A stretch of 64,000 bases of DNA, taken from Streptomyces sp. NA02950. GTDB taxonomy: Bacteria > Actinomycetota > Actinomycetes > Streptomycetales > Streptomycetaceae. The notes under the pieces are model-generated. The model made no database searches and was not told the DNA's origin. It was given only the letters and a program-made list of their open reading frames with translations. Position numbers and translations under genes: made by a program. Positions 14,223 to 46,597 of the stretch are shown in pieces. The first letter of the stretch is position 1. Each line of letters begins with the position of its first letter. The stretch is taken from assembly GCF_013364155.1 (NCBI RefSeq), contig NZ_CP054916.1, forward strand, positions 5,329,001 through 5,393,000. Reading direction: 5' to 3'.

Positions 14223-14340
14223 GCGCTCCGCGGGATCTGCCGCGTGGTGCCGTCGTTCGTCCGCGGCTGCCTCGTGGCGGGTCGCGCCCACGCGGCGGAG
14301 CCGCACATCGACACAGCGCCGCGCCCCTTCCGGGCGCACC
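14223..14340 (+). repeat. Streptomyces intergenic repeat, copy A
   Basis: Begins on the base after the stop codon (GCGCTCCGCGGGA) and includes the block GCGGCGGAGCCGCACATCGA at about 14292-14311 and the terminal CCGCGCCCCTTCCGGGC. It aligns along its length with 22371-22488, at roughly four of five bases. This sequence type is frequent between Streptomyces genes as I remember it. The remaining 408 bp to 14748 hold GC-rich DNA with no supported gene. Confidence 0.8.
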
Positions 14341-14748
14341 CGAACCGCGCGGGACTTCAGCGAGCCCGTTCGGCCCCCCACGGCTCCGGCCTGGGCCGAG
14401 CGCCCCCGGGACGGCGATCGGTCCCGGTCCGGCGGCATGGCACGTTCCGGTGCTCGGCCGCTGTCAGGGTTGCGGGGCACACGGGCCTGCCTGTCCCGGG
14501 CTGACTCGGGCCGAGCGCGTCAGGCCGGTGCCCGCACCCAACCACGGTCGACGGTCCTACTGGACCGAACGCGGCCCGCCCCGGCCGGGCGCGCCGGGAC
14601 GGCCGGTGGCCGTCCCCCGGCGCGCGGCGGGCGGACCCGGGCTAGGGAGCGTGTCACGCGCCCCCGGCGCCCACGCCGTGCTCGCCGTGCGCCACGGCGC
14701 GGGCGGCGGGCTCCCCGGTGGCCCAGGCCGCCGCGAGGACGGCGGCCG

Positions 14749-22370: not shown

Positions 22371-22488
22371 GCGCTCCGCGGGAAGTGCCGCAGGGTGCGG
22401 TCGTCCGTCCGCGGCCGCCTCGCGGCTGGTCGCGCCCCCGCGGCGGAGCCGCACATCGACACAGCCCCGCGCTCCCTCGGGGCGTGAC
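22371..22488 (+). repeat. Streptomyces intergenic repeat, copy B
   Basis: Starts at the base after the MFS stop codon, as copy A does at its gene, with the same GCGCTCCGCGGGA opening and the same GCGGCGGAGCCGCACATCGA block (about 22440-22459). Confidence 0.8.
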
Positions 22489-22539
22489 CGCACCGCGCCG
22501 GACGGCAGCGAGGCCGATCAGGCCCTGTCCGGTGCGGTC
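22486..22539 (+). terminator. Hairpin after the MFS gene
   Basis: GACCGCACCG (22486-22495) pairs perfectly with CGGTGCGGTC (22530-22539); a GTCC beside the right arm can extend the stem. It abuts repeat copy B. Confidence 0.4.
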
Positions 22540-22611
22540 CCGGCGGCCTGGCCGACCAGGGCCGTGGCGCAGGGCCGCCCACCGGGGCGCCGACTGCGCG
22601 AGACTGGCCGG

Positions 22612-33282: not shown

Positions 33283-34874
33283 CCGTGCTCGCGTCCGCGC
33301 TCGACCCCGGCGGCGCCGACTACACGGCCCACCGTGCGGCGATGCTCGCCAAACTCGGCGACCTCGACGCCGAGCACGCCAAAGCGCTCGCCGGAGGCGG
33401 TGAGAAATACCTCGCCCGCCACCGCAAGCGCGGCAAACGCCTCGCCCGCGAGCGCATCGAGCTCCTCCTCGACCCCGACACCCCCTTCCTCGAACTCTCC
33501 CCGCTCGCCGCCTGGGGCAGCGACTACCCCGTCGGCGCCTCCCTCGTCACCGGCATCGGCGTGATCTCCGGTGTGGAGTGCGTGATCAGCGCCAACGACC
33601 CCACCGTGCGCGGCGGCGCCAGCAACCCGTGGACCCTCAAGAAGTCCCTGCGCGCCCACGAGATCGCCCACGTCAACCGGCTCCCCGTGGTCAGCCTCGT
33701 CGAGTCCGGCGGCGCCGATCTCCCCAGCCAGAAGGAGATCTTCATCCCCGGCGGCGCGCTCTTCCGCGACCTCACCCGGCTCTCCGCCGCCGGAATCCCC
33801 ACCGTCTCCGTGGTCTTCGGCAACTCCACCGCCGGAGGCGCGTACATCCCCGGCATGTCCGACCACGTGATCATGGTCAAGGAGCGCTCCAAGGTCTTCC
33901 TCGGTGGCCCGCCCCTGGTCAAGATGGCCACCGGTGAGGAGAGCGACGACGAATCCCTCGGCGGCGCCGATATGCACGCCCGCGCCTCCGGACTCGCCGA
34001 CTACTTCGCCACCGACGAACCCGACTCCCTGCGCCAGGCCCGCCGCGTCATCGCCCGTCTCAACTGGCGCAAGGCCCACCCCGACCCGGGCCCCGCCGAA
34101 CCCCCCGCATACGACCCCGACGAACTCCTCGGCATCGTCCCCGGCGACCTCAAGATCCCCTTCGACCCCCGCGAGGTCATCGCCCGGATCGTCGACGGTT
34201 CCGACTTCGACGAGTTCAAGCCCCGCTACGGCACCAGCCTCGCCACCGGCTGGGCCACCCTCCACGGCTACCCCCTCGGCATCCTCGCCAACGCCCAGGG
34301 CGTGCTGTTCAGCGAGGAGTCCCAGAAGGCCGCCCAGTTCATCCAGCTCGCCAACCAGCGCGACATCCCGCTGCTCTTCCTGCACAACACCACCGGCTAC
34401 ATGGTCGGCCGCGCATACGAACAGGGCGGGATCATCAAACACGGCGCCATGATGATCAACGCGGTCTCCAACTCCCGCGTCCCCCACCTGTCCGTCCTCA
34501 TCGGCGCCTCCTACGGCGCCGGCCACTACGGCATGTGCGGCCGCGCCTACGACCCCCGCTTCCTCTTCGCCTGGCCCAGCGCCAAATCCGCCGTCATGGG
34601 GCCGCAGCAGCTCGCGGGCGTCCTGTCCATCGTCGCCCGCCAGTCCGCCGCCGCCAAGGGGCAGCCCTACGACGAAGAGGCCGACGCCGGGCTGCGCGCC
34701 ATGGTCGAGCAGCAGATCGAGTCCGAGTCCCTGCCCATGTTCCTCTCCGGGCGGCTCTACGACGACGGCGTCATCGACCCCCGCGACACCCGCACCGTCC
34801 TCGGCCTCTGCCTGTCCGCCATCCACACCGCACCGGTCGAAGGCGCACGCGGCTTCGGCGTCTTCCGGATGTGA
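33279..34874 (+). CDS. Acyl-CoA carboxylase beta (carboxyltransferase) subunit
   Basis: 531 residues. Carboxyltransferase of the methylcrotonyl/geranyl-CoA carboxylase type: KRGKRLARERIELLLDP (about 48), GGASNPWTLKKSLR, GNSTAGGAYIPGMSD (oxyanion region, about 183-197), FSEESQKAAQFIQLANQ and GASYGAGHYGMCGRAYDPRF (about 410-430). The last motif is found in MCC/GCC beta subunits, not in acetyl/propionyl types, so a branched, alpha-beta unsaturated acyl-CoA is likely. GTG 33279 has GGAGG eight bases upstream. Partner of the alpha subunit that starts five bases later. Confidence 0.92.
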   Translation: MTVLASALDPGGADYTAHRAAMLAKLGDLDAEHAKALAGGGEKYLARHRKRGKRLARERIELLLDPDTPFLELSPLAAWGSDYPVGASLVTGIGVISGVECVISANDPTVRGGASNPWTLKKSLRAHEIAHVNRLPVVSLVESGGADLPSQKEIFIPGGALFRDLTRLSAAGIPTVSVVFGNSTAGGAYIPGMSDHVIMVKERSKVFLGGPPLVKMATGEESDDESLGGADMHARASGLADYFATDEPDSLRQARRVIARLNWRKAHPDPGPAEPPAYDPDELLGIVPGDLKIPFDPREVIARIVDGSDFDEFKPRYGTSLATGWATLHGYPLGILANAQGVLFSEESQKAAQFIQLANQRDIPLLFLHNTTGYMVGRAYEQGGIIKHGAMMINAVSNSRVPHLSVLIGASYGAGHYGMCGRAYDPRFLFAWPSAKSAVMGPQQLAGVLSIVARQSAAAKGQPYDEEADAGLRAMVEQQIESESLPMFLSGRLYDDGVIDPRDTRTVLGLCLSAIHTAPVEGARGFGVFRM

Positions 34875-34879
34875 GGAAA

Positions 34880-36988
34880 ATGATCCGCTCTCTCCTGGTC
34901 GCCAACCGCGGCGAAATCGCCCGCCGCATCGTCCGCACCTGCCGTGAACTCGGCATCGCCACCGTCGCCGTGCACTCCGACGCCGACGCCACCGCCGCGC
35001 ACGTCCACGAGGCCGACGCCGCCGTACGGCTGCCGGGCGACGCGCCCGCCGACACGTATCTGCGCGGCGACCTCATCGTCAAAGCCGCCCTCGCCGCCGG
35101 TGCCGACGCCGTCCACCCCGGCTACGGCTTCCTCTCCGAACACGCCGACTTCGCCCGCGCGGTCACGGACGCCGGACTCGTCTGGGTCGGGCCACCGCCC
35201 GCCGCGATGGCGGCCATGGCCTCCAAGACCCGCGCCAAGCAGCTGATGCGCGAGGCCGGCGTACCCCTCCTCGCCCCCGCCGACCCCGACCGGGTCACCG
35301 CCGCCGATCTCCCCTTGCTCGTCAAGGCGGCGGCGGGCGGCGGCGGCCGCGGTATGCGGGTGGTCCGCGACCTCGACGCGCTCCCCGCCGAACTCGACTC
35401 CGCCCGCGCGGAGGCGGCCTCGGCCTTCGGGGACGGCGAGGTCTTCGTCGAGCCCTACCTGGAGGGCGCCCGCCATGTGGAGGTCCAGGTCCTCGCCGAC
35501 ACCCACGGCACGGTGTGGACCCTCGGCACCCGTGACTGCTCCCTCCAGCGCCGCCACCAGAAGGTCATCGAGGAGGCTCCCGCGCCGGGGCTGAGCGACG
35601 CGCTGCGCACCGTCTTGCACGAGTCGGCGGCGAACGCGGCGCGCAGTATCGGGTACGCGGGCGCGGGCACCGTCGAGTTCCTGGTCTCGGGGGAGCGGGC
35701 GTACTTCCTGGAGATGAACACCCGGCTCCAGGTGGAGCACCCGGTGACGGAGGAGATCTACGGACTGGACTTGGTGGCGCTGCAACTGCGGGTCGCGGAG
35801 GGCGAGCGGCTCGGAGCCGCCCCGGAGGCGCGCGGGCACGCGGTCGAGGCCCGGCTGTACGCGGAGGACCCGGGGCGGGGGTGGCAGCCGCAGACGGGTG
35901 TGATGCGGCGGTTCGCGTTTGCGGGGGGTGCGCCGGGGGGTGGGGGCGGGTCCGGTTCCGGGGCCTCCGGGGCGGCGCCCTGGACCGTATATTTTTGGCG
36001 CCGGCCCTCCGAGAAGTCTGGTGAACCCCAGATTGGCGCCACAAATATACGACAGCGTCCAGGACACCACCCCTGCGACCCCGGCCCCTCCCGTCTCGTC
36101 GGCGGCTCTCCGCCGGGACTGCGTATCGACTCCGGGATCGTGGACGGCGACGAGATCGGCGTCCACTACGACCCGATGCTGGCCAAGGTCATCGCCTGGG
36201 CGCCCACCCGCGCGGAGGCGCTGCGGCGGCTGGCGCACGAGCTGGAGCGTGCCTCCATCCATGGTCCGGTGACCAACCGGGAGTTGCTCGTACGGGCCCT
36301 GCGCCACCCGGAGTTCATCGCGGAGCGGATGGACACCGGTTTTCTCGAGCGGTATCTCGACGAGCTGACCGTCCCTGATGTGGAAGGCGCCCCTCTGGCC
36401 GCCCTGGCCGCCGCACTCGGCGACGCCGCCAACCGGCCCCGGTCCGTCGCCGGGCGACTGGGCGGATGGCGGAACGTCCCCTCCCAGCCGCAGGTCAAGA
36501 CCTACCGCTGCGAGCCGGACGGCACCGAGCACGAGGTCCGCTACCGGCTCACCCGCGACGGTCTGGTGGCGGATGACTTCCCGGACACCCAGCTCCTGCA
36601 CGCCGACCCGCACCGGGTGGTCCTCGAAGTCGACGGCATCCGGCGGACGTTCGGCATATCCGCGTACGGCGCCCGGGTGTACGTCGACTCACCCCTCGGA
36701 TCCTTTGCCTTCACCGCCCTGCCGCGCTTCCCCGACCCCACCGCCCGTACCGAACCGGGCTCACTGCTGGCGCCCATGCCGGGCACGGTGATCCGGGTCG
36801 CCGAGGTGGCCGTGGGCGACCGGGTCGAGGCCGGACAGCCGCTGCTGTGGCTGGAGGCCATGAAGATGGAGCACCGCATCACCGCACCCGTCGCCGGAAG
36901 TCTCACCGCGCTGCATGTGGCCACCGGCCGTCAGGTCGAGGTCGGCACCCTGCTCGCGGTGGTGGCGGCGGAGGACGAGCGCACCTGA
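34880..36988 (+). CDS. Acyl-CoA carboxylase alpha subunit (biotin carboxylase-BCCP) with in-frame insertion
   Basis: 702 residues. Biotin carboxylase domain 1-450 (LLVANRGEIARRIVRTCREL; ATP-grasp KAAAGGGGRGMR about 149-160; EMNTRLQVEHPVTE), linker domain, and a C-terminal biotinyl domain with EAMKMEH (biotin Lys about 661). The strand pair that normally reads MRRF..GLRIDSG is split by about 65 extra Gly/Pro/Arg-rich residues (about 348-412), encoded by a repeat element (35974-36068 with flanks). Without it the protein would be about 637 residues, the usual length. The insert has no stop or frameshift and lies on a surface loop of the BC C-terminal subdomain, so activity may survive. ATG 34880; GTG 34871 is in frame. 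Confidence 0.9.
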   Translation: MIRSLLVANRGEIARRIVRTCRELGIATVAVHSDADATAAHVHEADAAVRLPGDAPADTYLRGDLIVKAALAAGADAVHPGYGFLSEHADFARAVTDAGLVWVGPPPAAMAAMASKTRAKQLMREAGVPLLAPADPDRVTAADLPLLVKAAAGGGGRGMRVVRDLDALPAELDSARAEAASAFGDGEVFVEPYLEGARHVEVQVLADTHGTVWTLGTRDCSLQRRHQKVIEEAPAPGLSDALRTVLHESAANAARSIGYAGAGTVEFLVSGERAYFLEMNTRLQVEHPVTEEIYGLDLVALQLRVAEGERLGAAPEARGHAVEARLYAEDPGRGWQPQTGVMRRFAFAGGAPGGGGGSGSGASGAAPWTVYFWRRPSEKSGEPQIGATNIRQRPGHHPCDPGPSRLVGGSPPGLRIDSGIVDGDEIGVHYDPMLAKVIAWAPTRAEALRRLAHELERASIHGPVTNRELLVRALRHPEFIAERMDTGFLERYLDELTVPDVEGAPLAALAAALGDAANRPRSVAGRLGGWRNVPSQPQVKTYRCEPDGTEHEVRYRLTRDGLVADDFPDTQLLHADPHRVVLEVDGIRRTFGISAYGARVYVDSPLGSFAFTALPRFPDPTARTEPGSLLAPMPGTVIRVAEVAVGDRVEAGQPLLWLEAMKMEHRITAPVAGSLTALHVATGRQVEVGTLLAVVAAEDERT
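35974..36068 (+). repeat. Palindromic repeat element, copy 1 (inside carboxylase gene)
   Basis: 95-bp core from GGCGCCCTGGACCG to AGCGTCCAGGACACC. The arms pair: CCTGGAC...TATATTTTTGGCGCC on the left against GGCGCCACAAATATA...GTCCAGG on the right, with a GAGAAGTCTGGTGA centre. Conserved flanks (GGGCCTCCGGG on the left; CCTCCCGTCTCGTCGGCGGC at 36087-36106 on the right) match copies 2 and 3. Confidence 0.85.
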
Positions 36989-37009
36989 GGGGACGGGGTC
37001 GCAGGGGGT

Positions 37010-37104
37010 GGTGTCCTGGACGCTTTCGGATATGCGTGGCGCCGATCTGGGGCTCACCCGACTTCTCCGGGCACGGCGGCCGTACATATCCGGTCCAGGG
37101 CGCC
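37010..37104 (-). repeat. Palindromic repeat element, copy 2 (inverted)
   Basis: 95-bp core, same length as copy 1 and about 80% identical on the opposite strand, with the same arms (GTCCTGGACGC... and ...GGTCCAGGGCGCC) and the same centre (GGAGAAGTCGGGTGAGCCCC read on the minus strand). It begins 22 bp after the carboxylase stop, so transcription of this operon must read through it to reach the dehydrogenase. Confidence 0.85.
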
Positions 37105-37182
37105 GCCCCGGCGGCCCCGGCCCCGCCCCGTGACGACGCACCGCAACCCCACGGCAGCAGCACCCACGAGGAGGAGTCGCAC

Positions 37183-38322
37183 ATGACCACCAGCACCCAC
37201 ACCCCCACCGACACCCCCGAACGCGCCGATCTCCGCGCCGCCGTCGCCGCCCTCGGCCAGGGCCACCGCGGCGACATCGGCGAGCTGTGGAAAGAGGCCG
37301 GAAAGCTGGGCTACCTCGGGGTCAACCTCCCCGGGGAGTACGGCGGCGGAGGCGGCGGCATAGCCGAGCTGTCCATCGTCCTGGAGGAGTTGGGCGCCGC
37401 CGGGTGCCCGCTCCTGCTGCTCGTCGTCTCGCCCGCCATCTGCGGCACGGTCATCGCCCGCTTCGGCACCGAGGAGCAGAAGCGCCGCTGGCTGCCCGGC
37501 CTGGCCGACGGCAGCGTACGGATGGCGTTCGGGATCACCGAGCCCGACGCGGGCTCGAACTCGCACCGCATCACCACCACCGCCCGCCGCGACGGCGACG
37601 ACTGGGTGCTCACCGGCCGCAAGGTGTTCATCACCGGGGTGGACACCGCCGACGCCACACTGATCGTGGGCAGGACCGAGGACGCGCGGACAGGGAAGCT
37701 GAAGCCGTGTCTGTTCATCGTCCCGCGGGAGACGCCCGGTTTCACGTACCACCACATCCCGATGGAACTCGCCTCGGACGAGCGACAGTTCGAACTGGTG
37801 CTGGACGACGTCCGGCTGTCGGCGGACGCGCTGGTGGGGGACGAGGACGCGGGGCTGCTCCAGCTGTTCGCGGGGCTGAACCCGGAGCGGATCATGACCG
37901 CGGCGTTCGCGCTGGGGATGGGCCGCTTCGCGCTGGCGAAGGCGGTGGACTACGCCCGTACCCGCCAGGTGTGGAAGGAGCCGATCGGCGCGCACCAGGC
38001 GATCGCCCATCCGCTGGCGCAGGCGCACATCGAGCTGGAGCTCGCCCGGCTGATGACGGCGAAGGCGGCGTTTCTGTACGACAGCGGCGATGACGCGGCC
38101 GCGGGGGAGGCGGCGAACATGGCGAAGTACGCGGCCGCCGAGGCCGCGGTGAAGGCGGTGGACCAGTCGGTGCACACGCTCGGCGGCAACGGGCTGAGCA
38201 CCGAGTACGGGCTGGCGCGGCTGATCACGGCGTCGCGGGTGGCGAGGATCGCGCCGGTGAGCCGGGAGATGATCCTCAACTTCGTCTCGCACCAGACGCT
38301 GGGGCTGCCGAAATCGTACTGA
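37183..38322 (+). CDS. Acyl-CoA dehydrogenase, isovaleryl/long-chain type active site
   Basis: 379 residues with FAD/substrate motifs MAFGITEPDAGSNSHRITT (about 109-127) and the C-terminal helical domain with QSVHTLGGNGLSTEYGLARL. The catalytic base at the usual medium-chain position is absent (IAPVSREM replaces IYEGTxE), while GLNPERIMTAAFALGMG (Glu about 237) holds a Glu where isovaleryl- and long-chain dehydrogenases have theirs. That fits an alpha-beta desaturase for branched acyl-CoAs (LiuA/AtuD-like). GAGGAGG lies nine bases before ATG 37183. Electrons would go to ETF. Confidence 0.9.
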   Translation: MTTSTHTPTDTPERADLRAAVAALGQGHRGDIGELWKEAGKLGYLGVNLPGEYGGGGGGIAELSIVLEELGAAGCPLLLLVVSPAICGTVIARFGTEEQKRRWLPGLADGSVRMAFGITEPDAGSNSHRITTTARRDGDDWVLTGRKVFITGVDTADATLIVGRTEDARTGKLKPCLFIVPRETPGFTYHHIPMELASDERQFELVLDDVRLSADALVGDEDAGLLQLFAGLNPERIMTAAFALGMGRFALAKAVDYARTRQVWKEPIGAHQAIAHPLAQAHIELELARLMTAKAAFLYDSGDDAAAGEAANMAKYAAAEAAVKAVDQSVHTLGGNGLSTEYGLARLITASRVARIAPVSREMILNFVSHQTLGLPKSY

Positions 38323-38395
38323 GTTCGAATGGGCACGCATCGGCGGCGAGTTGGGCAGAGTCGACGGGAAGGTCTTCGGATTCGAGGGGAACACC

Positions 38396-39979
38396 ATGGT
38401 GCTGCACAGCGACTGTCCCGATGTCCCGCCCGTCGATCTGCCCATTCACGAGGCCGTACTGGCCCGTGCGGCGGATGAGTTCGGTGAGCGGACCGCGCTG
38501 GTGGACGGGGTGACGGGGGCGAGCATGAGCTATGCCGCGCTCGATCACGCCTCACGGAGGATCGCCGCCGCGCTGGCCGAGACCGGGGTGGGCAAGGGCG
38601 AGATGGTGGCGCTGCACAGCCCCAACTCGATCATGTACCCGGCGGCGTTCTACGGCGTGACGCGCACCGGGGCGGCCGTCACCACGGTGCATACGCTGGC
38701 GACGGCGGAGGATTTCGCCAAGCAGCTGAGGGACGCGGAGGCACGGTGGATCATCACCGTGTCGCCGCTGCTCGAGGTGGCCCGGCAGGCGGCGGAGCGG
38801 GCCGGCGGGGTGCGCGAGATCTTCGTGTGCGACGAGGCGAGCGGGCACCGTTCGCTGCGGGAGATGCTCGCGTGCACCGCGCCGGAGCCGGCGGTGGAGA
38901 TCGACCCGATGGAGGACGTGGCGGTGCTGCCGTACTCGTCGGGGACGACCGGCACCCCGAAGGGGGTGATGCTGACCCACCGGAACGTGGCGACCAATCT
39001 GGCGCAGGTGGAGACGGTGGTGCCGACGCTGCCGGACGAACGGGTGCTGGCGGTGCTGCCGTTCTTCCACAGCTACGGGCTGACGGCGTTGATGAACGCG
39101 CCGCTGCGCAACGGCAGCACGGTGATCGTGCTGCCGCGGTTCGATCTGGAGCAGTTCCTGACGGCGATCGAGAAGTACCGGGCGCACGCGGTGTACGTGG
39201 CGCCGCCGATCGTGCTGGCGCTGGCCAAGCATCCGGCGGTGGAGGGCCGCGATCTGTCGTCGGTGCGCTTCGTGCTGAGCGCGGCGGCGCCGCTGGACGC
39301 GCGGCTGGCGCAGGCGTGCGCCGAGCGGCTGGGGCTGCCGCCGCTGCTCCAGGCGTTCGGGATGACGGAGCTGTCCCCGGGTTCGCATCTGGTGCCGCGG
39401 GACGCGGAGCACGTACCGCCGGGGACGGTGGGCAGGCTGCTGCCGAGCACCCGGATGCGCATCGTGGACCCGGAGTCGGGGCGGGATGTGGCGGTGGGTG
39501 TGGACGGGGAGATCCTCGTACAGGGCCCGCAGGTGATGAAGGGCTATCTGGGCAGGCCCGAGGAGACCCACGCGATGATCGACGCCGAGGGCTGGCTGCG
39601 CACCGGGGACGTCGGGCACGTGGACGCCGACGGCTGGCTGTACGTGGTGGACCGGGTCAAGGAGCTGATCAAGTACAAGGGTTACCAGGTCGCCCCCGCC
39701 GATCTGGAGGCCGTGCTGCTCACCCACCGGGACGTCGCGGACGCGGCGGTCATCGGGGTGGCCGACGGGGCGGGCAATGAGCTGCCCAAGGCGTATGTGG
39801 TGCGGGTGCCCGGAGCCCGTGTCTCGGGGGACGACCTGATCCGTTACGTTGCCGATCAGGTGGCCCCGTACAAGAAGGTGCGCAGCGTGGAGTTCACGGA
39901 CGCCGTGCCGCGCTCCGCCACCGGCAAGATCCTCAGGCGCGAGCTGCGCGCCAGGGAAAGGAGTTCGACCGCGACATGA
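38396..39979 (+). CDS. Acyl/aryl-CoA ligase (4-coumarate/cinnamate:CoA ligase-like)
   Basis: 527 residues of the ANL superfamily: P-loop YSSGTTGTPKGVMLTHR (about 180-196), FGMTELSPGSH (about 321), GWLRTGDVGHVDADGW (about 399) and the C-terminal hinge KYKGYQVAPADLE with the catalytic Lys in PRSATGKILRREL (about 513). From memory it is close to the S. coelicolor cinnamate:CoA ligase (SCO4383). Its acid-CoA product would feed the dehydrogenase and carboxylase. ATG 38396 with GAGGGG upstream; 73 bp after the dehydrogenase. Confidence 0.9.
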   Translation: MVLHSDCPDVPPVDLPIHEAVLARAADEFGERTALVDGVTGASMSYAALDHASRRIAAALAETGVGKGEMVALHSPNSIMYPAAFYGVTRTGAAVTTVHTLATAEDFAKQLRDAEARWIITVSPLLEVARQAAERAGGVREIFVCDEASGHRSLREMLACTAPEPAVEIDPMEDVAVLPYSSGTTGTPKGVMLTHRNVATNLAQVETVVPTLPDERVLAVLPFFHSYGLTALMNAPLRNGSTVIVLPRFDLEQFLTAIEKYRAHAVYVAPPIVLALAKHPAVEGRDLSSVRFVLSAAAPLDARLAQACAERLGLPPLLQAFGMTELSPGSHLVPRDAEHVPPGTVGRLLPSTRMRIVDPESGRDVAVGVDGEILVQGPQVMKGYLGRPEETHAMIDAEGWLRTGDVGHVDADGWLYVVDRVKELIKYKGYQVAPADLEAVLLTHRDVADAAVIGVADGAGNELPKAYVVRVPGARVSGDDLIRYVADQVAPYKKVRSVEFTDAVPRSATGKILRRELRARERSSTAT

Positions 39980-40776
39980 CCGACGCGCCTTCGCCGCTGG
40001 TACGGCGTACTGACGCCCGCGGCATCACCACGCTGACCCTCGACTCCCCGCACAACCGCAACGCGCTCTCGGCCCGGCTGGTGGCCGAGTTGCACGAGGC
40101 GCTGGCGGCGGCCGGGCGGGACGGGGACACCCGGGCCGTGCTGCTCACCCACACCGGCACCGCGTTCTGCGCGGGCGCGGACCTGAAGGAGCCGCCGGCC
40201 ACCACCGGCACGCTCGGTCTGGTGTCGCTGCTGCGGTCGATCGTGGAGCTGCCCAAGCCGGTGGTGGCCCGGGTCGCGGGGCATGTACGGGCCGGGGGGC
40301 TGGGGCTGCTGGGGGCGTGCGACATCTCGGCGGCGGGCGAGGGGTCCAGCTTCGCCTTCACGGAGGCGCGGCTGGGCCTGGCCCCGGCGGTGATCTCGCT
40401 GCCGCTGCTGCCCCGGCTGGACGCCCGGGCGGCGTCCCGCTACTACCTGACCGGGGAGAAGTTCGGCGCGGCCGAGGCGGCCCGGATCGGTCTGGTGACG
40501 CTGGCGGATCCGGACGGGGACCCGGACGCGCTGCTGGCGCCGGTGCTGGAGGGTTTGCGCCGGGGCTCCCCGCAGGGGCTCGCGGAGTCCAAGCGGCTGG
40601 TGACGGCGGAGGTGCTGCGGACGTTCGACCGGGACGCGGAGTCGCTGGCGGAGCTGTCGGCGCGGCTGTTCGGCTCGGCGGAGGCGCGGGAGGGGATGAC
40701 GGCGTTCCTGGAGCGCCGGGATCCGCCGTGGGTGCCGGACGCGGCGGACGAGGGCGTGGCGGAGGCCGGGCGGTGA
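39976..40776 (+). CDS. Enoyl-CoA hydratase/isomerase-family protein
   Basis: 266 residues of the crotonase fold: HNRNALSARLVAELH, AFCAGADLKE (about 55-64), RAGGLGLLGACDI (about 98-110). Of the two Glu used by rat enoyl-CoA hydratase, the first (in GGGCELA) is missing and replaced by Gly/Leu (GLGLLGA), while the second aligns with FTEARLGLAP. Oxyanion Gly residues are kept. This fits a lyase/hydratase for branched glutaconyl-CoAs (LiuC/AtuE-like) or a different crotonase reaction. ATGA overlap with the ligase; overlaps TetR by 4 bases. Confidence 0.88.
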   Translation: MTDAPSPLVRRTDARGITTLTLDSPHNRNALSARLVAELHEALAAAGRDGDTRAVLLTHTGTAFCAGADLKEPPATTGTLGLVSLLRSIVELPKPVVARVAGHVRAGGLGLLGACDISAAGEGSSFAFTEARLGLAPAVISLPLLPRLDARAASRYYLTGEKFGAAEAARIGLVTLADPDGDPDALLAPVLEGLRRGSPQGLAESKRLVTAEVLRTFDRDAESLAELSARLFGSAEAREGMTAFLERRDPPWVPDAADEGVAEAGR

Positions 40777-41393
40777 CGCGGACGGCGGGTCCGGGGCCCC
40801 GCACCGTACTGCGCGACCCCAAGCAGGACCGCAGCCGCGTCACCCGGCAGCGGCTGCTGGAAGCCGCGGTGGCCTGTCTCGCCGAGTACGGCTGGGCCGG
40901 GTCCACGGTGGCGGTGGTGGCCGAGCGGGCCGGGGTCTCCCGGGGTGCGGCCCAGCACCACTTCCCGACCCGGGAGGACCTGTTCACGGCCGCGGTGGAG
41001 CATGTCGCCGAGGAGCGCTCGGCGGAGTTGCGGGCCCTCCCCGCACCGCGGGGGGAGGGCCGTACCCGGACGGTGGTGCGGGCGATCGTCGGCCTCTACA
41101 CCGGCCCGCTGTTCCGGGCCGCCCTCCAGCTGTGGGTGGCGGCCTCCAACGAGGAGCAGCTCGGCACCCGGGTGACCGCGCTGGAGGCGCGGATCGGCCG
41201 GGAGACCCACCGGATGGCGGTGGAGCTGCTGGGTGCCGACGAGTCCGTGCCGGGGGTGCGGGAGACCGTGCAGGGCCTGCTGGACATGGGCCGCGGTCTG
41301 GGCCTGGCCAATCTGCTCAGGGACGACGGCCCGCGCCGGGAGCGGGTCGTCGCCCAGTGGACGCGGATCCTGGAGGAGGTGCTGGGCGGCTGA
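40773..41393 (+). CDS. TetR-family regulator of the acyl-CoA operon
   Basis: 206 residues. N-terminal HTH with TRQRLLEAAVACLAEYGWAG and VVAERAGVSRGAAQHHFPTR (about 49-68); helical ligand-binding C-terminus. GTG 40773 overlaps the hydratase stop (GTGA). Last gene of the operon, so self-regulation is expected; its operator is probably the palindrome at 30713-30724. Ligand likely an acyl-CoA intermediate (inference). Confidence 0.9.
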   Translation: MTRTAGPGPRTVLRDPKQDRSRVTRQRLLEAAVACLAEYGWAGSTVAVVAERAGVSRGAAQHHFPTREDLFTAAVEHVAEERSAELRALPAPRGEGRTRTVVRAIVGLYTGPLFRAALQLWVAASNEEQLGTRVTALEARIGRETHRMAVELLGADESVPGVRETVQGLLDMGRGLGLANLLRDDGPRRERVVAQWTRILEEVLGG

Positions 41394-41396
41394 AGG

Positions 41397-42497
41397 CTAC
41401 CGCGAGATGTCCCCGTAGCCCTCGATGTCGTGCGGGCTGCGGGTCCCCGGCCCGGTGTAGCGGGCGGAGGGCCGGACCAGCCGCCCGGTCCGCTTCTGCT
41501 CCAGGATGTGCGCGCTCCACCCGGCGGTGCGGGCGCAGGTGAACATGGACGTGAACATGTGCGCCGGGACCTCGGCGAAGTCCAGCACGATGGCCGCCCA
41601 GAACTCCACGTTGGTGGCGAGCACCCGGTCCGGGCGGCGGTTGTGCAGCTCCTCCAGCGCGGCCCGCTCCAGGGCCTCGGCGACCTCGAACCGCGGTGCG
41701 CCCAGCTCCTTGGCGGTGCGCCGCAGCACCCGCGCCCGCGGGTCCTCGGCCCGGTAGACCCGGTGGCCGAAGCCCATCAGCCGCTCGCCCCGGTCCAGGG
41801 CCTGGCGGACGTACGCCGCGGCGTCCCCGGTGCGCTCGATCTCCTCGATCATGCCCAGCACCCGGGAGGGCGCGCCGCCGTGCAGCGGGCCGGACATGGC
41901 GCCGACCGCGCCGGAGAGCGCGGCGGCGACATCGGCGCCGGTGGAGGCGATGACGCGGGCGGTGAAGGTGGAAGCGTTCATGCCGTGCTCGGCCGCGGAG
42001 GTCCAGTAGGCGTCGACGGCGGCGACGTGCTGGGGGTCGGGCTCACCGCGCCAGCGCCGCATGAACCGCTCGACGATGGTCTCCGCCTTGTCGATCTCGC
42101 GCTGCGGCACCATCGGCAGCCCTTGGCCGCGGGCCGACTGCGCCACGTAGGACAGGGCCATCACGGCGGCGCGCGCGAGGTCCTCGCGGGCCTGCTCCTC
42201 GTCGATGTCCAGCAGCGGTTTCAGCCCCCAGACCGGCGCGAGCATGGCCAGCGCGGACTGGACGTCGACCCGGATGTCCCCGGAGTGCACGGGGATGGGG
42301 AAGGGCTCGGCGGCGGGCAGGCCGGGGTTGAACGCACCGTCGACCAGCAGACCCCAGACGTTGCCGAAGGACACATGGCCCACGAGGTCCTCGATGTCGA
42401 CACCTCGGTAGCGGAGCGCGCCGCCCTCCTTGTCGGGTTCGGCGATCTCCGTCTCGAACGCGACGACTCCCTCGAGTCCGGGTACGAAGTCGGACAT
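41397..42497 (-). CDS. Citrate synthase-like protein (citrate synthase 2 family)
   Basis: 366 residues with the citrate synthase core: GPLHGGAPSRVLGM (His, about 217), MGFGHRVYRAEDPRA (His, about 252) and TNVEFWAAIVLDF (about 305), where Asp375 of classical enzymes (NVDF) is replaced by Glu. The family is shorter than housekeeping citrate synthase (~430) and is common in Streptomyces as a second paralogue; activity may be citrate or 2-methylcitrate synthesis. Convergent with TetR, only 3 bp apart, and divergent from pdxH. Confidence 0.87.
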   Translation of the reverse strand: MSDFVPGLEGVVAFETEIAEPDKEGGALRYRGVDIEDLVGHVSFGNVWGLLVDGAFNPGLPAAEPFPIPVHSGDIRVDVQSALAMLAPVWGLKPLLDIDEEQAREDLARAAVMALSYVAQSARGQGLPMVPQREIDKAETIVERFMRRWRGEPDPQHVAAVDAYWTSAAEHGMNASTFTARVIASTGADVAAALSGAVGAMSGPLHGGAPSRVLGMIEEIERTGDAAAYVRQALDRGERLMGFGHRVYRAEDPRARVLRRTAKELGAPRFEVAEALERAALEELHNRRPDRVLATNVEFWAAIVLDFAEVPAHMFTSMFTCARTAGWSAHILEQKRTGRLVRPSARYTGPGTRSPHDIEGYGDISR

Positions 42498-42937
42498 CAG
42501 GCGGCTCCTCGTGATGTGGTCGGCGGTGGGTGGATGGTGTGACCGGTGCGGCTGGTGTGCGGGTCGCGTACGGGACGGGTGGGGTGGCTCGGTACCGCTG
42601 CGTCAGCGGGATCGTCGGGTGGCGGTTCTGCCGGTACCGGGACGGTTCCACGGCCGCGTGGCGGCGGCTCGCGGTCCGTACCGGCTATCCGGTGATGTGC
42701 CCCGTGCGGCTGGTGGTCACCCAGCCGTGCCCGAAGAGGTGGGGCACCAGACCCTGACAGGCGCATGGTCAGCCACAGTCTGGTGGCTTCGCTACCCATG
42801 GGGAAGCGTGAGAAGCGGCACACCCCGCCGCCCCCCGAATGAGGGTTACCGGGCCCTGCGACGGGGGAGAGACCTCGCGGTGGTGGGGAGGGGCATCGCT
42901 CTTTCGCGGTACCCCCTGCGGCGGACCGGTGATGTTG
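42498..42937. other. Divergent gap between citrate synthase-like gene and pdxH
   Basis: About 440 bp with no supported gene. It contains a GAGGAG site for the leftward gene at its left end. No strong hairpin or repeat seen. Confidence 0.5.
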
Positions 42938-42943
42938 CAAGAT
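42938..42943 (+). promoter_or_regulatory. -10-like box of pdxH
   Basis: CAAGAT, six bases before GTG 42950. Weak match to TANNNT at its first base, but the spacing is the same as at other leaderless genes here. Confidence 0.3.
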
Positions 42944-42949
42944 ATGCGC

Positions 42950-43645
42950 GTGCCTCACGTTGACCCGGAGCCGTCGGCTTCCTCCGCGCGTTCGTACGAC
43001 CCGGCCGCCATGCGCGAGCACTATCGCGCCGAGGGCATCACCGAGGCCGATCTCGCGGGCGATCCGTACCGGCAGTTCACCCGGTGGTTCGAGCAGGCCG
43101 TGGGAAGCGGGCTGTTCGAGCCCAACGCGATGGTCGTCTCCACCGCGGACGCGGCGGGACGGCCCAGCTCCCGCACGGTGCTGATGAAGAGCTTCGACGA
43201 ACGCGGCTTCGTCTTCTATACCAACTACGGCTCGCGCAAGGGCCGTGAGCTGACCGGGAACCCGCATGTCTCGCTGCTCTTCCCCTGGCATCCGATCGCC
43301 CGGCAGGTGATCGTCCTGGGCACCGCCCGGCGCACCGGGCGGGACGAGACGGCGGCGTACTTCCGGACCCGTCCGCACGGTTCGCAGCTGGGGGCGTGGG
43401 CCAGTGCCCAGTCCTCGGTGGTCGGCTCCCGCGAGGAGCTGGACCGCTCCTACGCGGAGCTGGCGGACCGCTATCCGCCGGGCGAGCAGGTGCCGGTGCC
43501 GCCGCACTGGGGCGGCTTCCGGGTGGTGCCGGAGGCGGTGGAGTTCTGGCAGGGGCGCGAGAACCGGCTGCACGACCGGCTGCGGTATGTGTGGGTGCCG
43601 TCCGAGGAGGGCGGGCGCTGGAAGGTGGAGCGGCTGAGCCCCTGA
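42950..43645 (+). CDS. pdxH: Pyridoxamine/pyridoxine 5'-phosphate oxidase
   Basis: 231 residues. FMN-dependent oxidation of PNP/PMP to PLP. Conserved: [11 protein letters not shown], the FMN-binding [21 protein letters not shown] and [38 protein letters not shown], and the terminal HDRLRYV...[11 protein letters not shown] 42950 fits a leaderless start; in-frame ATGs at 42944 and 42932 are alternatives (a start at 42944 would overlap the putative -10). Confidence 0.93.
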
Positions 43646-43649
43646 GGTC

Positions 43650-43674
43650 GTGCCCCGGAAGGGGCGCGGGGCAC
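43650..43674 (+). terminator. Terminator with intergenic-repeat core after pdxH
   Basis: GTGCCCC (43650-43656) pairs with GGGGCAC (43668-43674); inside, CCCCGGAAGGGGCGCGGGG is the reverse complement of the end of repeat copies A/B. It looks like a reduced, inverted copy C of that intergenic repeat used as a terminator. Confidence 0.55.
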
Positions 43675-43730
43675 CGGGCGATCAGTCGCGGCGGGGCCGC
43701 ATGATCCCTCTCGCGCGGAGCGCGGACGCA

Positions 43731-43806
43731 GACGACCCGCGGGTCGTCTCCTCGTGCCGTACGGCACCAGAAGGCCGGTCGGACGTACCGGCGACCCGCG
43801 GGTCGG
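43731..43806. other. Cluster of perfect palindromes in the pdxH-PAS gap
   Basis: GACGACCCGCGGGTCGTC (43731-43748, 18 bp perfect), GTGCCGTACGGCAC (43754-43767, 14 bp perfect), and a near-copy of the first (43792-43806). Could be overlapping operators or a complex terminator. The rest of the 455-bp gap has AT-richer promoter-like DNA at 43930-44040. Confidence 0.5.
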
Positions 43807-44024
43807 GTGACTGCTTGGGATTGGCCGGCTGCGCACATCATTCGTGCGCCAGTCCGGCGGTGCGCAGAGCGCGACGACGGACCGCTAGCCCGCAGTCACC
43901 TCACGCGTCCGGATTTCATACATCTGCCGAACCACCTCCCTTCTCGTGTACCCCACACCCTAAAAACCCTCCCGGACCACACACAAGCGAATTTCCGGGA
44001 GACAACGATTTGGTGGAATGCGGT

Positions 44025-44038
44025 GTGGCGCGCGTCAC
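44025..44038 (+). promoter_or_regulatory. Crp-like site before the PAS gene
   Basis: GTG-GCGCGC-GTCAC exactly fits the Streptomyces Crp consensus GTG(N6)GNCAC. It lies 62 bp before the PAS gene start. One match to a short consensus in GC-rich DNA is weak evidence. Confidence 0.25.
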
Positions 44039-44100
44039 GTTCGAGTTCAATGTTCCGACGTGCATCACCACAGCCAGTCGCGTCCCGCAGGGGGTGTCCG

Positions 44101-45618
44101 GTGACCGCTTCACCACGATCCGAACCTGCACGTCCAGCCCGCCCCGCGCGTTCCGCGCGGTCCATCCCCGCGCAGTCCCCGGTCTCCGGGCCCGCTCCCG
44201 ACCGGGACGACTCCGATCTGCTCGCCGCGCTGCTCGACGGCATGGACACGGCGCTGTGCGCGTTCGACGCCGACGGCGTCGTGACCCACTGGAACCGCGA
44301 GGCCGAGCGCATCCTCGGCTGGACGGCGGCCGAGGCCGTCGGCCGCAAGGGGCTCGCGGGATGGGCGGCCCGGGAGGCGGACGCGGACGAGGTCCAGCGG
44401 CGGCTGATGGCGGTACGGGACGCCGCGGGCCGCCGGGTCCATGAATTCGCACTGGTGACGAAGGACGGCGGCCGGGTCCTGGTGCGCACCCAGTCCTCGC
44501 CGGTGCCCGCCGCCGACGGCCGCCCCACCGGGGTGTACTGCGCCTTCAGCGAGGTGCGCTCGCAGATCGACCTGGAGCGGTCGATCGCGCTGAGCGAGGC
44601 GCTGCTCGAGGACGCCTCGTGGCACGTGGTCCTCGTCGACGCCGATCTGCGGGTGGCCGTGGTGAACGGCAACGCGGCGCGCGCGCTGCGGACGGGGCGC
44701 AGGGCCGTGCTCGGCCGTCCGCTCGGCGACCTCCTCGACCAGGGCGTGGAGGAGGTCGAGAGCGCCCTCCAGCACGTCCTGGCCGAGGGCGCGCCGCCCG
44801 CGCCCACCGAGCTGTGGGTGACGCTGCGCGAGGCGGACGAGGACCTGGAGATGGCGGACGCCATCCACTTCGAGGAGCTCGAGGAAGGGGAGGCGGAGGC
44901 GGCGGCGGTGCGGGCGTTCGGTCCGGGCGCCGACTCGGTGCGGCGCTGCTGGCGCAGCGGCTTCCTGCGGCTGGCCTCGCCGCTCACCGAGGAGCCGGTG
45001 CCGCTCGGGGTGGCCTGGATCTTCCAGGACGTGACGGAGGCGAAGGCGCACGAGCAGGACAGCGCCCGGATGCGCTTCCGGGGCAGTCAGCTGCACCGGG
45101 CGGCGCGGGCGGCGGCCGAGTGCGAGGACCCGATGGAGGCGGTCTCGGTCCACCTGGACTTCGCGCTGGCGGGGTTCGCGGACCATGCGCTGCTCGACCT
45201 GGTGCTGCCGTCCTCGGGGGCCGGGGCGGGAGACGGTGGTGTTCGGCTGGTGCGGGTGGCGGCTACCCCGTGCGACAGCCCGGGGCCGTGTCCGCCGACC
45301 GCCCCGGGCGGGATCCCGGTGGCGTACCCGGAGGGGCATCCGGCGCTCCAGGCGGTGGAGCGGTGTGGTGCGGTGCGGGCCAGTGCGGCGCGGACGGACG
45401 AGGTGTCGCTGACGCAGTGGACGGTGGTCCGCAAATGGCCGGACGGGACCGTCCACGCGCTCTGCGCGGTCCTCCGCAGCCGCGGCCGCACGCTGGGCGT
45501 GGCCACGTTTCTGCGCGGGCCCACGCGTCGGGCGTTCGACCGTACGGACGCGGTGTACGCGGAGGACGTGGCGGCGAGGGTGGCCGCGGCGGTGGACCTC
45601 GCCGGGCGGGCGGGCTGA
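44101..45618 (+). CDS. PAS-domain signalling protein
   Basis: 505 residues from GTG 44101 (GGGGTG four bases upstream). A Pro/Ala/Arg-rich disordered N-terminus (1-35) is followed by PAS1 (about 40-155; FDADGVVTHWNREAERILGW), PAS2 (about 175-325; ends WIFQDVTEAKAHEQD) and a C-terminal GAF/PAS-like domain (about 340-500). There is no histidine kinase, phosphatase (SpoIIE) or GGDEF output, so it is either a partner sensor or binds a ligand itself. Convergent with the SIS gene. Confidence 0.8.
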   Translation: MTASPRSEPARPARPARSARSIPAQSPVSGPAPDRDDSDLLAALLDGMDTALCAFDADGVVTHWNREAERILGWTAAEAVGRKGLAGWAAREADADEVQRRLMAVRDAAGRRVHEFALVTKDGGRVLVRTQSSPVPAADGRPTGVYCAFSEVRSQIDLERSIALSEALLEDASWHVVLVDADLRVAVVNGNAARALRTGRRAVLGRPLGDLLDQGVEEVESALQHVLAEGAPPAPTELWVTLREADEDLEMADAIHFEELEEGEAEAAAVRAFGPGADSVRRCWRSGFLRLASPLTEEPVPLGVAWIFQDVTEAKAHEQDSARMRFRGSQLHRAARAAAECEDPMEAVSVHLDFALAGFADHALLDLVLPSSGAGAGDGGVRLVRVAATPCDSPGPCPPTAPGGIPVAYPEGHPALQAVERCGAVRASAARTDEVSLTQWTVVRKWPDGTVHALCAVLRSRGRTLGVATFLRGPTRRAFDRTDAVYAEDVAARVAAAVDLAGRAG

Positions 45619-45662
45619 GGGCGAGGGCGCGTGGGCGGGTGCGGGGCCGGGGCCTCCGGGAT

Positions 45663-45776
45663 GGGTCCTGGACCGTTCGCCGGCGCCGGTGCCCGGAGGA
45701 GCCGGGTGGGCCGGAGACCGGCGCCACACATACGCCCCTGGCCTTCGGCATGGGGGACCCCGAGCGTCCAGGACCC
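45663..45776 (+). repeat. Palindromic repeat element, copy 3
   Basis: Same arms as copies 1-2 (GGTCCTGGACCG... and ...GCGTCCAGGACC) and the same inner GGCGCC boxes, but with ~19 extra bases (TGGCCTTCGGCATGGGGGA) in the right arm. The right flank repeats CCTCCCGTCTCGTCGGCGGC at 45801-45820. It fills the gap between the convergent PAS and SIS genes and may act as their terminator. Confidence 0.8.
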
Positions 45777-45841
45777 CCTGCGCCCCCTGCCCCTCCCACC
45801 CCTCCCGTCTCGTCGGCGGCCGCCCCGCCATCGGTGTTTCG

Positions 45842-46597
45842 TCAGTGGCGGTAGAAGATGCGGTCCGCGTAGTCGGTCATCACGCGCTTGTTCCACTCGT
45901 GGCCGCCGTCCACGTTGCCCGATCTGAGCATCGGCGGTTCCGTGCCGCCCTTCGCCAGCTCCTCGACGGCCGTCGCGACCATCGCCTGCATCAGGGCGCT
46001 CGTCACCACCGTGGAGGCTGGGGCGAAGGGGGCGGCCACGCCCTCCGTCGTGAGCTCCGCGTCGCCGACGGCGATCTTGTTGTCCAGGACCAGATCGCAG
46101 TGGTCCTTCAGGAAGCCGCCCGAAGGATTGCGGGAGGTGGTGCCGCTCGCGTAGGCGACGGACGTCACCCCGACCACCGTGACGCCCTTCTCGCGGGCGG
46201 TTCTCGCCAGCTCCACGGGCAGCACGTTTCTGCCCGAGAGCGAGATGACGATCAGCAGGTCCCCGGAGCGCAGCGGGCTCTGCTCCAGGACGGTCGAGGC
46301 CAGGCCCTCGATCCGCTCGAGCGCGCTGCCGAGGGTGGCGGGCCTGACGTCCACGCCGACCAGACCGGGTGCCGGGAGCAGATTCATCAGCGCCAGCCCG
46401 CCCGCGCGGTAGACGACGTCCTGGGCGGGCAGCGAGGAGTGCCCGGCGCCGAAGACGAAGAGGCGGCCGCCCGCGGTCACCGTGTCGGCGATCAGCCGGG
46501 CCGCGGCCGTGATCTGCTGGGACTCCTCGTTCCGTACGCGTCGCAGCAGGCCGATGGCGGAGTCGAAGAAGCGTCCTGCCGCTTCGGAATCGCTCAT
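45842..46597 (-). CDS. SIS-domain sugar phosphate-binding protein (UPF0309 type)
   Basis: 251 residues with an SIS domain: GGRLFVFGAGHSSLPAQDVVYRAGG (about 42-66) and GDLLIVISLSGRN (about 112-124), the two sugar-phosphate contact regions. Matches the UPF0309/sugar isomerase-domain family in Streptomyces. It binds a phosphosugar; isomerase activity is not certain. Divergent from dmdR1 with a 159-bp gap. Confidence 0.85.
   Translation of the reverse strand: MSDSEAAGRFFDSAIGLLRRVRNEESQQITAAARLIADTVTAGGRLFVFGAGHSSLPAQDVVYRAGGLALMNLLPAPGLVGVDVRPATLGSALERIEGLASTVLEQSPLRSGDLLIVISLSGRNVLPVELARTAREKGVTVVGVTSVAYASGTTSRNPSGGFLKDHCDLVLDNKIAVGDAELTTEGVAAPFAPASTVVTSALMQAMVATAVEELAKGGTEPPMLRSGNVDGGHEWNKRVMTDYADRIFYRH

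Follow-up and report, generated by a model that had tools for sequence, protein, structure and literature searches.

A repeat element lies in frame within a carboxylase gene

The window, that is the whole 64,000-nucleotide stretch of the Streptomyces sp. NA02950 genome analysed here, carries at 34880–36988 (+ strand) the gene of a biotin-dependent acyl-CoA carboxylase alpha subunit with biotin carboxylase (BC), BT and biotinyl domains. The reading frame is open from 34535 to 36988 and encodes 702 aa counted from the ATG at 34880. The protein matches Biotin_carb_N, CPSase_L_D2, Biotin_carb_C (400–480 of the stretch searched), BT_MCC_alpha and Biotin_lipoyl, and the family matches are interrupted across an insert. 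The best PDB match, 3u9s (methylcrotonyl-CoA carboxylase alpha subunit), is aligned over 1–342 and then over 399–682 of the stretch searched; the DNA of the gap (residues 343–398) is a repeat. Relative to five close orthologues (L092, L093, L094, L241 and L242; G and L numbers are our handles for genomes and loci), the protein of the window has 64 extra alignment columns, placed at a β-hairpin turn of the BC C-terminal subdomain that is short in the closest orthologues. Hence, the initial annotation of this locus, a repeat lying in frame in a BC gene with neither stop nor frameshift and adding about 65 residues, is borne out by the open frame and by the alignment. The likely inserted unit is 35931–36117 (- strand), with uncertain boundaries. 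CGCCGGG occurs at both of its ends (35931–35937 and 36111–36117) and is a candidate target duplication, which would leave a net gain of 180 bp or 60 codons, a 7-bp match being weak evidence of duplication in such GC-rich DNA.

The loop was compared in a sample of 80 carboxylase loci of named genomes. A text pattern read it in 73 of them (L052 was misread, its true spacer being short), the loops of L018, L025, L066 and L084 were read by eye, and L046, L057 and L070 were left out. The spacer has 14 residues or fewer in 55 of the 73 orthologues read by the pattern; a loop shared by all orthologues with unrelated DNA, the outcome said beforehand to contradict the annotation, is therefore not observed. 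Close orthologues in G055, G095, G149, G164 and G179 lack the element and show a tight turn, such as HRLEIAGLRVDSG. The expectation of a short turn at this place thus holds for close orthologues, but some other Streptomyces orthologues have long loops of simple sequence, with spacers of 38–66 residues in L014, L017, L027 and L050 and long ones also in L090 and L091. A covariance model of the element found no match in any of these long loops. Those of S. ficellus and S. lushanensis (L027 and L050) are Gly/Pro-rich spacers of 66 and 63 residues without element match. These long element-free loops indicate that the BC turn tolerates length change anyway. They would also favour ordinary loop growth by low-complexity slippage, with no repeat involved; for copy 1 this explanation is refuted by the match to another copy in the genome described below, and its probability is negligible.

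The element belongs to a modular, multi-copy family

Three copies of the element lie in the window. Copy 1 has its covarying core at 35959–36082 (- strand), with the O strand, the one we take to be folded (see below), antisense to the host gene. Copy 2, inverted with respect to copy 1, is located at 36995–37119 (+ strand), at the extreme 3' end of the carboxylase gene. Copy 3 is intergenic (45648–45787, - strand). A repeat search pairs 35953–36073 with 37005–37125 (inverted, 121 nt, 83% complementary) and 35921–35971 with 45610–45660. The other copies that had been annotated, an inverted one near 37010 and one near 45663, are thus confirmed. The 95-bp core described at first is indeed palindromic and repeated, but represents the inner part of a palindromic, covarying core of about 124 nt; with its flanks, the element reaches roughly 165–190 nt. 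The flanks of the core differ between copies.

The covariance model rests on nine rows, of which eight come from the genome of the window and the ninth from S. griseocarneus. Copies 1 to 3 are among these rows, so that their scores of 138.5, 113.5 and 79.1 bits match by construction. Independently of the model, a blastn search of the genome with copy 2 retrieved copy 1 with 86% identity (E 2.4e-34). It also hit four other copies (E 4e-16 to 5e-15) and, as two fragments, a minimal copy (E 1e-5 to 9e-5). One minimal copy, L007, lacks the inner stem. In total, the window's genome has nine distinct copies (12 rows from the model, three of which are opposite-strand echoes of strong copies), all between 4.55 and 5.71 Mb of the 9.6-Mb contig. 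The covariance search scored 150 of 7967 first-look candidates, and more divergent copies may be missed.

Relatives provide empty sites. The copy 2 site corresponds, in four of the five relatives, to a gene end reading ...GGGGAGTGA, and the copy is absent from all five (by the covariance model for L092–L094, by sequence reading for all). The copy 3 site is empty in G179, with 28 bp between the flanking matches versus 245 in the window. In addition, copy 3 contains a 33-nt extra module (45730–45762, - strand; CGGGGTCCCCCATGCCGAAGGCCAGGGGCGTAT on the O strand). Copies 1 and 2 lack this module; four of the genome's nine copies have it, and it occurs in the 5' arm of 6 of 109 copies (the window's, L120, L123, L125, L218 and L221). 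The element is therefore modular.

Rfam covariance models run over 35000–46500 of the window, with E values up to 1, gave no match to the element; the only matches, Ms_IGR-5 and a weak mir-228, lie elsewhere. Ms_IGR-5, an actinobacterial sRNA (RF02471), is found at 43727–43949 (- strand) with 96 bits against a cut-off of 45. Another repeat of the window, a direct one of 174 nt and 80% identity, links 14223–14396 and 22371–22544.

Among 295 sampled Streptomyces genomes, 20 contain the family, the window's own counted, with up to 20 copies per genome. Best-strand counts are highest in G060 (20 copies), G164 (16) and G055 (14), opposite-strand echoes having been taken out by hand. In the draft genome G149 (L227, L229–L233), several copies are close to contig ends (a few hundred bases at most), as expected since repeats break assemblies. 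The element has clearly multiplied. The view of an amplifying, mostly intergenic repeat that entered a coding region is supported by the nine genome copies and by the frame kept open in the carboxylase gene.

One strand carries a long covarying hairpin

From a set of 110 copies (109 and L018), 18 module-bearing, minimal or low-scoring copies and 7 identical ones were removed, and the remaining 85 were aligned. The alignment supports one long hairpin of 35 pairs, formed in 96.6% of the cells; on its 5' side, some five unpaired bases, such as GCTTA, form an asymmetric bulge. Double-sided changes are seen in 18 of the 35 pairs. The covariation score is 0.255, as compared with 0.117 in shuffled alignments, none of 500 reaching the observed value, and with no more than 0.051 after sliding, bearing in mind that cells are not independent, copies within a genome being related, and that the copies were found by a model already holding part of the stem. 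Stem changes recur between subfamilies (TCCTGGAC/GTCCAGGG, TCCGGGGC/GCCCCGGA, TCCGGAAT/ATTCCGGA; GGCGCC versus GGGCCC). Conserved G.U pairs, such as columns 46–101 in 81 of 85 copies, identify the O strand as the strand that folds. The BC mRNA has the sequence complementary to the O strand, and the MoeA and CydDC mRNAs described below have that of the O strand itself.

The coding capacity of the core was compared with shuffled sequences, in which a core of about 124 nt is open per frame in 43–48% of cases; with such a GC content, an open frame is thus no rarity. The three frames of the complement strand, to which the BC reading belongs, are open in 68, 75 and 82% of the copies, and those of the O strand in 36, 67 and 46%, percentages that are inflated by related copies.

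Copies tend to adjoin gene 3' ends and to form diverging pairs

The gene facing the 3' end of the O strand converges on the element in 66 of 90 copies and runs away from it in 24. Among the 101 classified copies, five have no such neighbour called, six are inside ORFs and one lies between divergent genes; these neighbour classes come from our own gene caller, based on codon-position GC, and are approximate. Copies thus tend to adjoin gene 3' ends, on the downstream side.

This location could reflect a structured RNA or an antisense terminator that is selected at gene 3' ends and is not selfish, the in-gene copies being accidents of amplification. Such a role is consistent with the covariation and with the G.U pairs that one strand conserves, as well as with the 3'-end preference, its fixed orientation and the single copy between divergent genes. 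On the other hand, the patchy spread over 20 of 295 genomes, the identical copies at different loci (92 collapse to 85) and the empty sites in close relatives fit a multiplying element. As an account opposed to selfish amplification, we therefore find the structured-RNA reading rather unlikely. The two views are compatible and not exclusive.

Neighbouring copies have a preferred arrangement. Within 5 kb, O strands diverge in 12 of 13 pairs, as compared with 8 of 54 wider neighbours in nine genomes. The close pairs lie in the window (35953–37125), G164, G055, G095, G060 and G018, and several loci are orthologous between genomes, which brings the number of independent pairs closer to nine. In the window, copies 1 and 2 form such a diverging pair, copy 2 being located where four of the five relatives end the gene.

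The same carboxylase loop was probably hit repeatedly

In S. griseocarneus (L018), a homologous element occupies the same carboxylase loop in the same orientation; this copy was spotted by eye and then made a model row, so that its 110.4 bits are partly by construction. G060 also has the element in this loop (89.1 bits, copy outside the model rows). In S. roseoverticillatus (L066; G240), the BC copy is reduced to its edge, the remainder being lost in frame. L018 and its sister G257 form a clean filled/empty pair with an 8-bp direct repeat, TGGGTGCG, at both ends of the insert and a net gain of 171 bp, or 57 codons.

In a tree of 55 carboxylases, L018 stands beside the empty-site G257 (100/100), G060 beside S. 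roseoverticillatus with its remnant (100/100), and the gene of the window in a third, distinct clade (100/100), where the site is empty in the six other rows. The left junctions are similar in L018 and G060, reading GGGTGCGG followed by YGCCGGGG. The reading frame of the element differs between the window's gene and L018/G060. As judged from the tree and the junctions, the BC loop would have received two or three insertions, numbers that these data do not separate.

The element is found in other proteins

A strict coding-bias scan placed 4 of 109 copies within an open coding frame and a simple gene caller placed 6 of 101 inside ORFs, three copies being common to both sets. Hosts read individually as in frame are BC in the window and in G060, and a MoeA-like gene both in the window's genome and in G179. 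In a CydDC-like ABC transporter of G043, the element lies in the linker joining the two halves. In a G060 gene with PRTase_2, TRSP and StiP domains, it occupies residues ~501–542, between the end of PRTase_2 (463) and the start of TRSP (624). In these last two hosts, the copy is a candidate insertion. At two further loci, L190 565–2520 (G240) and L135 586–2523 (G060), the frame is open through the copy and joins two probable genes; the match of the second one to Neocarzinostat is below threshold. This could be a fusion or chance, and both loci, being ambiguous, were excluded from the count of in-frame hosts.

MoeA was searched in 19 element-bearing genomes. An in-frame element segment in the N-terminal linker, judged by eye and by peptide motifs, is present in all six genomes of the window's clade (the window's genome, G179, G164, G055, G095 and G149) and in none of the 13 others. 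The gene caller set the MoeA start downstream of the element in G164, G055, G095 and G179. We place it upstream, since a DEALAL-like N-terminal motif precedes the element in the same frame in 6 of 6 genomes, a pattern also found in 9 of the 13 others. The MoeA copy scores 107.5 bits in the window's genome, where it is a model row, 87.4 in G179, 69.3 in G164, 58.6 in G055 and 48.3 in G095. It seems to be an older insertion, retained in the protein even though its hairpin has deteriorated.

The insert is predicted to be a disordered loop

AlphaFold2, run with an alignment of 42 orthologues, gave a mean pLDDT of 85 and a pTM of 0.79. Residues 351–410 have pLDDT values below 50, and the flanking strands 344–346 and 413–418 are formed. 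The fold is thus predicted to be intact, with residues 351–410 disordered. Gly, Pro, Ser and Thr make up 54% of the insert versus 24% of the rest of the protein. The host frame has no stop within the insert, so the gene should be translated through it, probably yielding a Gly/Pro-rich loop of ~64 residues that we infer to be neutral for the enzyme. Downstream of the insert, dN/dS against four relatives is 0.27–0.35, element-free pairs giving 0.31, 0.32 and 0.43; if the insertion is young, these values say little on constraint since insertion.

Repeats favour misassembly, and an assembly error at the insert had been named beforehand as a possible contradiction. The 702-codon frame is nevertheless intact, the genome was assembled in 2 contigs, and the element is present in the homologous loop of two other assemblies (L018 and G060). 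A pseudogene is opposed by the same frame and by dN/dS past the insert, similar to that of element-free relatives. An assembly error or pseudogene is accordingly very improbable.

Alternatively, the insert may have been domesticated. Either the strong coding hairpin, together with the inverted copy at the 3' end, would regulate the mRNA through its stability, through attenuation or through long-range pairing, or the loop would serve at the protein level. Copies 1 and 2 do flank the 3' half of the gene as complementary inverted sequences, an arrangement shared by nearly all close pairs, and the MoeA copy is kept open in every clade genome examined. However, five close orthologues have neither copy 1 nor copy 2, the BC copy of S. 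roseoverticillatus was mostly lost, in frame, and MoeA pairing is lost in several genomes, which argues against selection of the fold within coding DNA. We regard domestication as unlikely.

Candidate vehicles and mobility

Several known routes of mobility were considered. A RAYT or IS200-type driver was rejected because the Y1 transposase family PF01797 is missing in five of the nine element-bearing genomes searched: no match was found in the window's own genome (G000), G095, G060, G240 and G058. Over the 20 genomes searched, PF01797 matches occur in six, four of the nine that bear the element and two of the eleven that do not. A composite transposon with copies 1 and 2 as cargo ends was rejected as well: dS between the copies is 0.43–0.56, versus 0.37–0.48 in the preceding part, and this similarity of dS to four relatives argues that the gene part between the copies is not foreign cargo. 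A plasmid or phage vehicle was rejected on the basis of one G164 copy, for which a search of 72,556 plasmid and 50,697 phage records gave no match.

When the flanks of 95 copies were permuted, their longest direct repeats were like the observed ones. With no excess in this test, general target duplication is not supported, and the case for duplication rests on the L018/G257 pair. The clean 8 bp at that site would suggest a DDE-type enzyme.

Discussion

We propose to see in copy 1 a palindromic element, non-autonomous and able to amplify, which came to lie in frame in the β-hairpin turn of BC and is tolerated as a disordered loop; we give this reading a probability of about 0.8. On the lineage leading to the window's genome, the element would have entered the turn in frame, selection would have kept only this in-frame event, and the gene would be read through the insert as a disordered Gly/Pro-rich loop. 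The element itself would be held by its own hairpin, the O strand folding as a long stem with a five-base bulge and conserved G.U pairs, and would be mobilised in trans by some enzyme. The initial interpretation is thus supported and widened, since it did not include the recurrence at the same loop, the other host proteins, the covarying strand or copy 2 at the gene end.

In a broader and more tentative proposal, which we see as possible and somewhat short of even odds, Streptomyces would have its own system of the kind known in Rickettsia: a strand-specific folded element that settles time and again in the loops and linkers of core enzymes, multiplies without a transposase of known type tied to it, can persist as a new disordered protein segment, and moves as the folded O strand, either RNA or single-stranded DNA. 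The covarying fold is a candidate RNA or single-stranded DNA family beyond the result of the Rfam search. In the open-licence literature, we found no description of this Streptomyces palindromic family.

REP sequences, given as 20–40 bp long (PMC3733652), resemble the Streptomyces element in being palindromic, repeated and close to gene 3' ends. Unlike REP/RAYT systems, the element has a core of ~124 nt and the window's genome lacks a Y1 transposase match. Enterobacterial RU-1 and RU-2 (ERIC-like) and other MITEs are described as non-autonomous repeats of 100–170 bp, mainly intergenic and sometimes producing in-frame fusions (PMC2759123, PMC10969869). The Streptomyces element is likewise a non-autonomous, mainly intergenic repeat with some copies in frame in genes; in contrast to MITEs, no defined terminal inverted repeats or related transposase were found for it, the transposase search covering the Y1 family, and target duplication is seen at one site only.

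The closest parallel is with Rickettsia palindromic elements (RPE). In a review, these are palindromes of ~150 bp, spread genome-wide and in frame in unrelated genes whose proteins are apparently tolerant; one genome has 44 copies, of which nearly half lie within ORFs, and the review considers similar MITE-driven protein change conceivable in other prokaryotes (PMC10969869). In-frame mobile palindromes appear there as best known in Rickettsia, with further enterobacterial cases (PMC10969869). The present case concerns the large, GC-rich genomes of Streptomyces. Several species offer filled and empty sites, a single loop of a well-studied enzyme was probably hit two or three times, and the MoeA copy is open across a clade. 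New protein segments from mobile DNA thereby become testable in culturable bacteria. Like RPE, the Streptomyces element is a multi-copy palindrome of about 100–150 bp found in frame in unrelated genes (BC, MoeA, CydDC and PRTase_2-TRSP). It differs from RPE by its Streptomyces host, its GC-rich sequence, its long covarying hairpin and its copies mostly past gene 3' ends, with 6 of 101 called inside ORFs in addition to the MoeA copies read by eye. The likeness of the Streptomyces element to RPE is one of behaviour.
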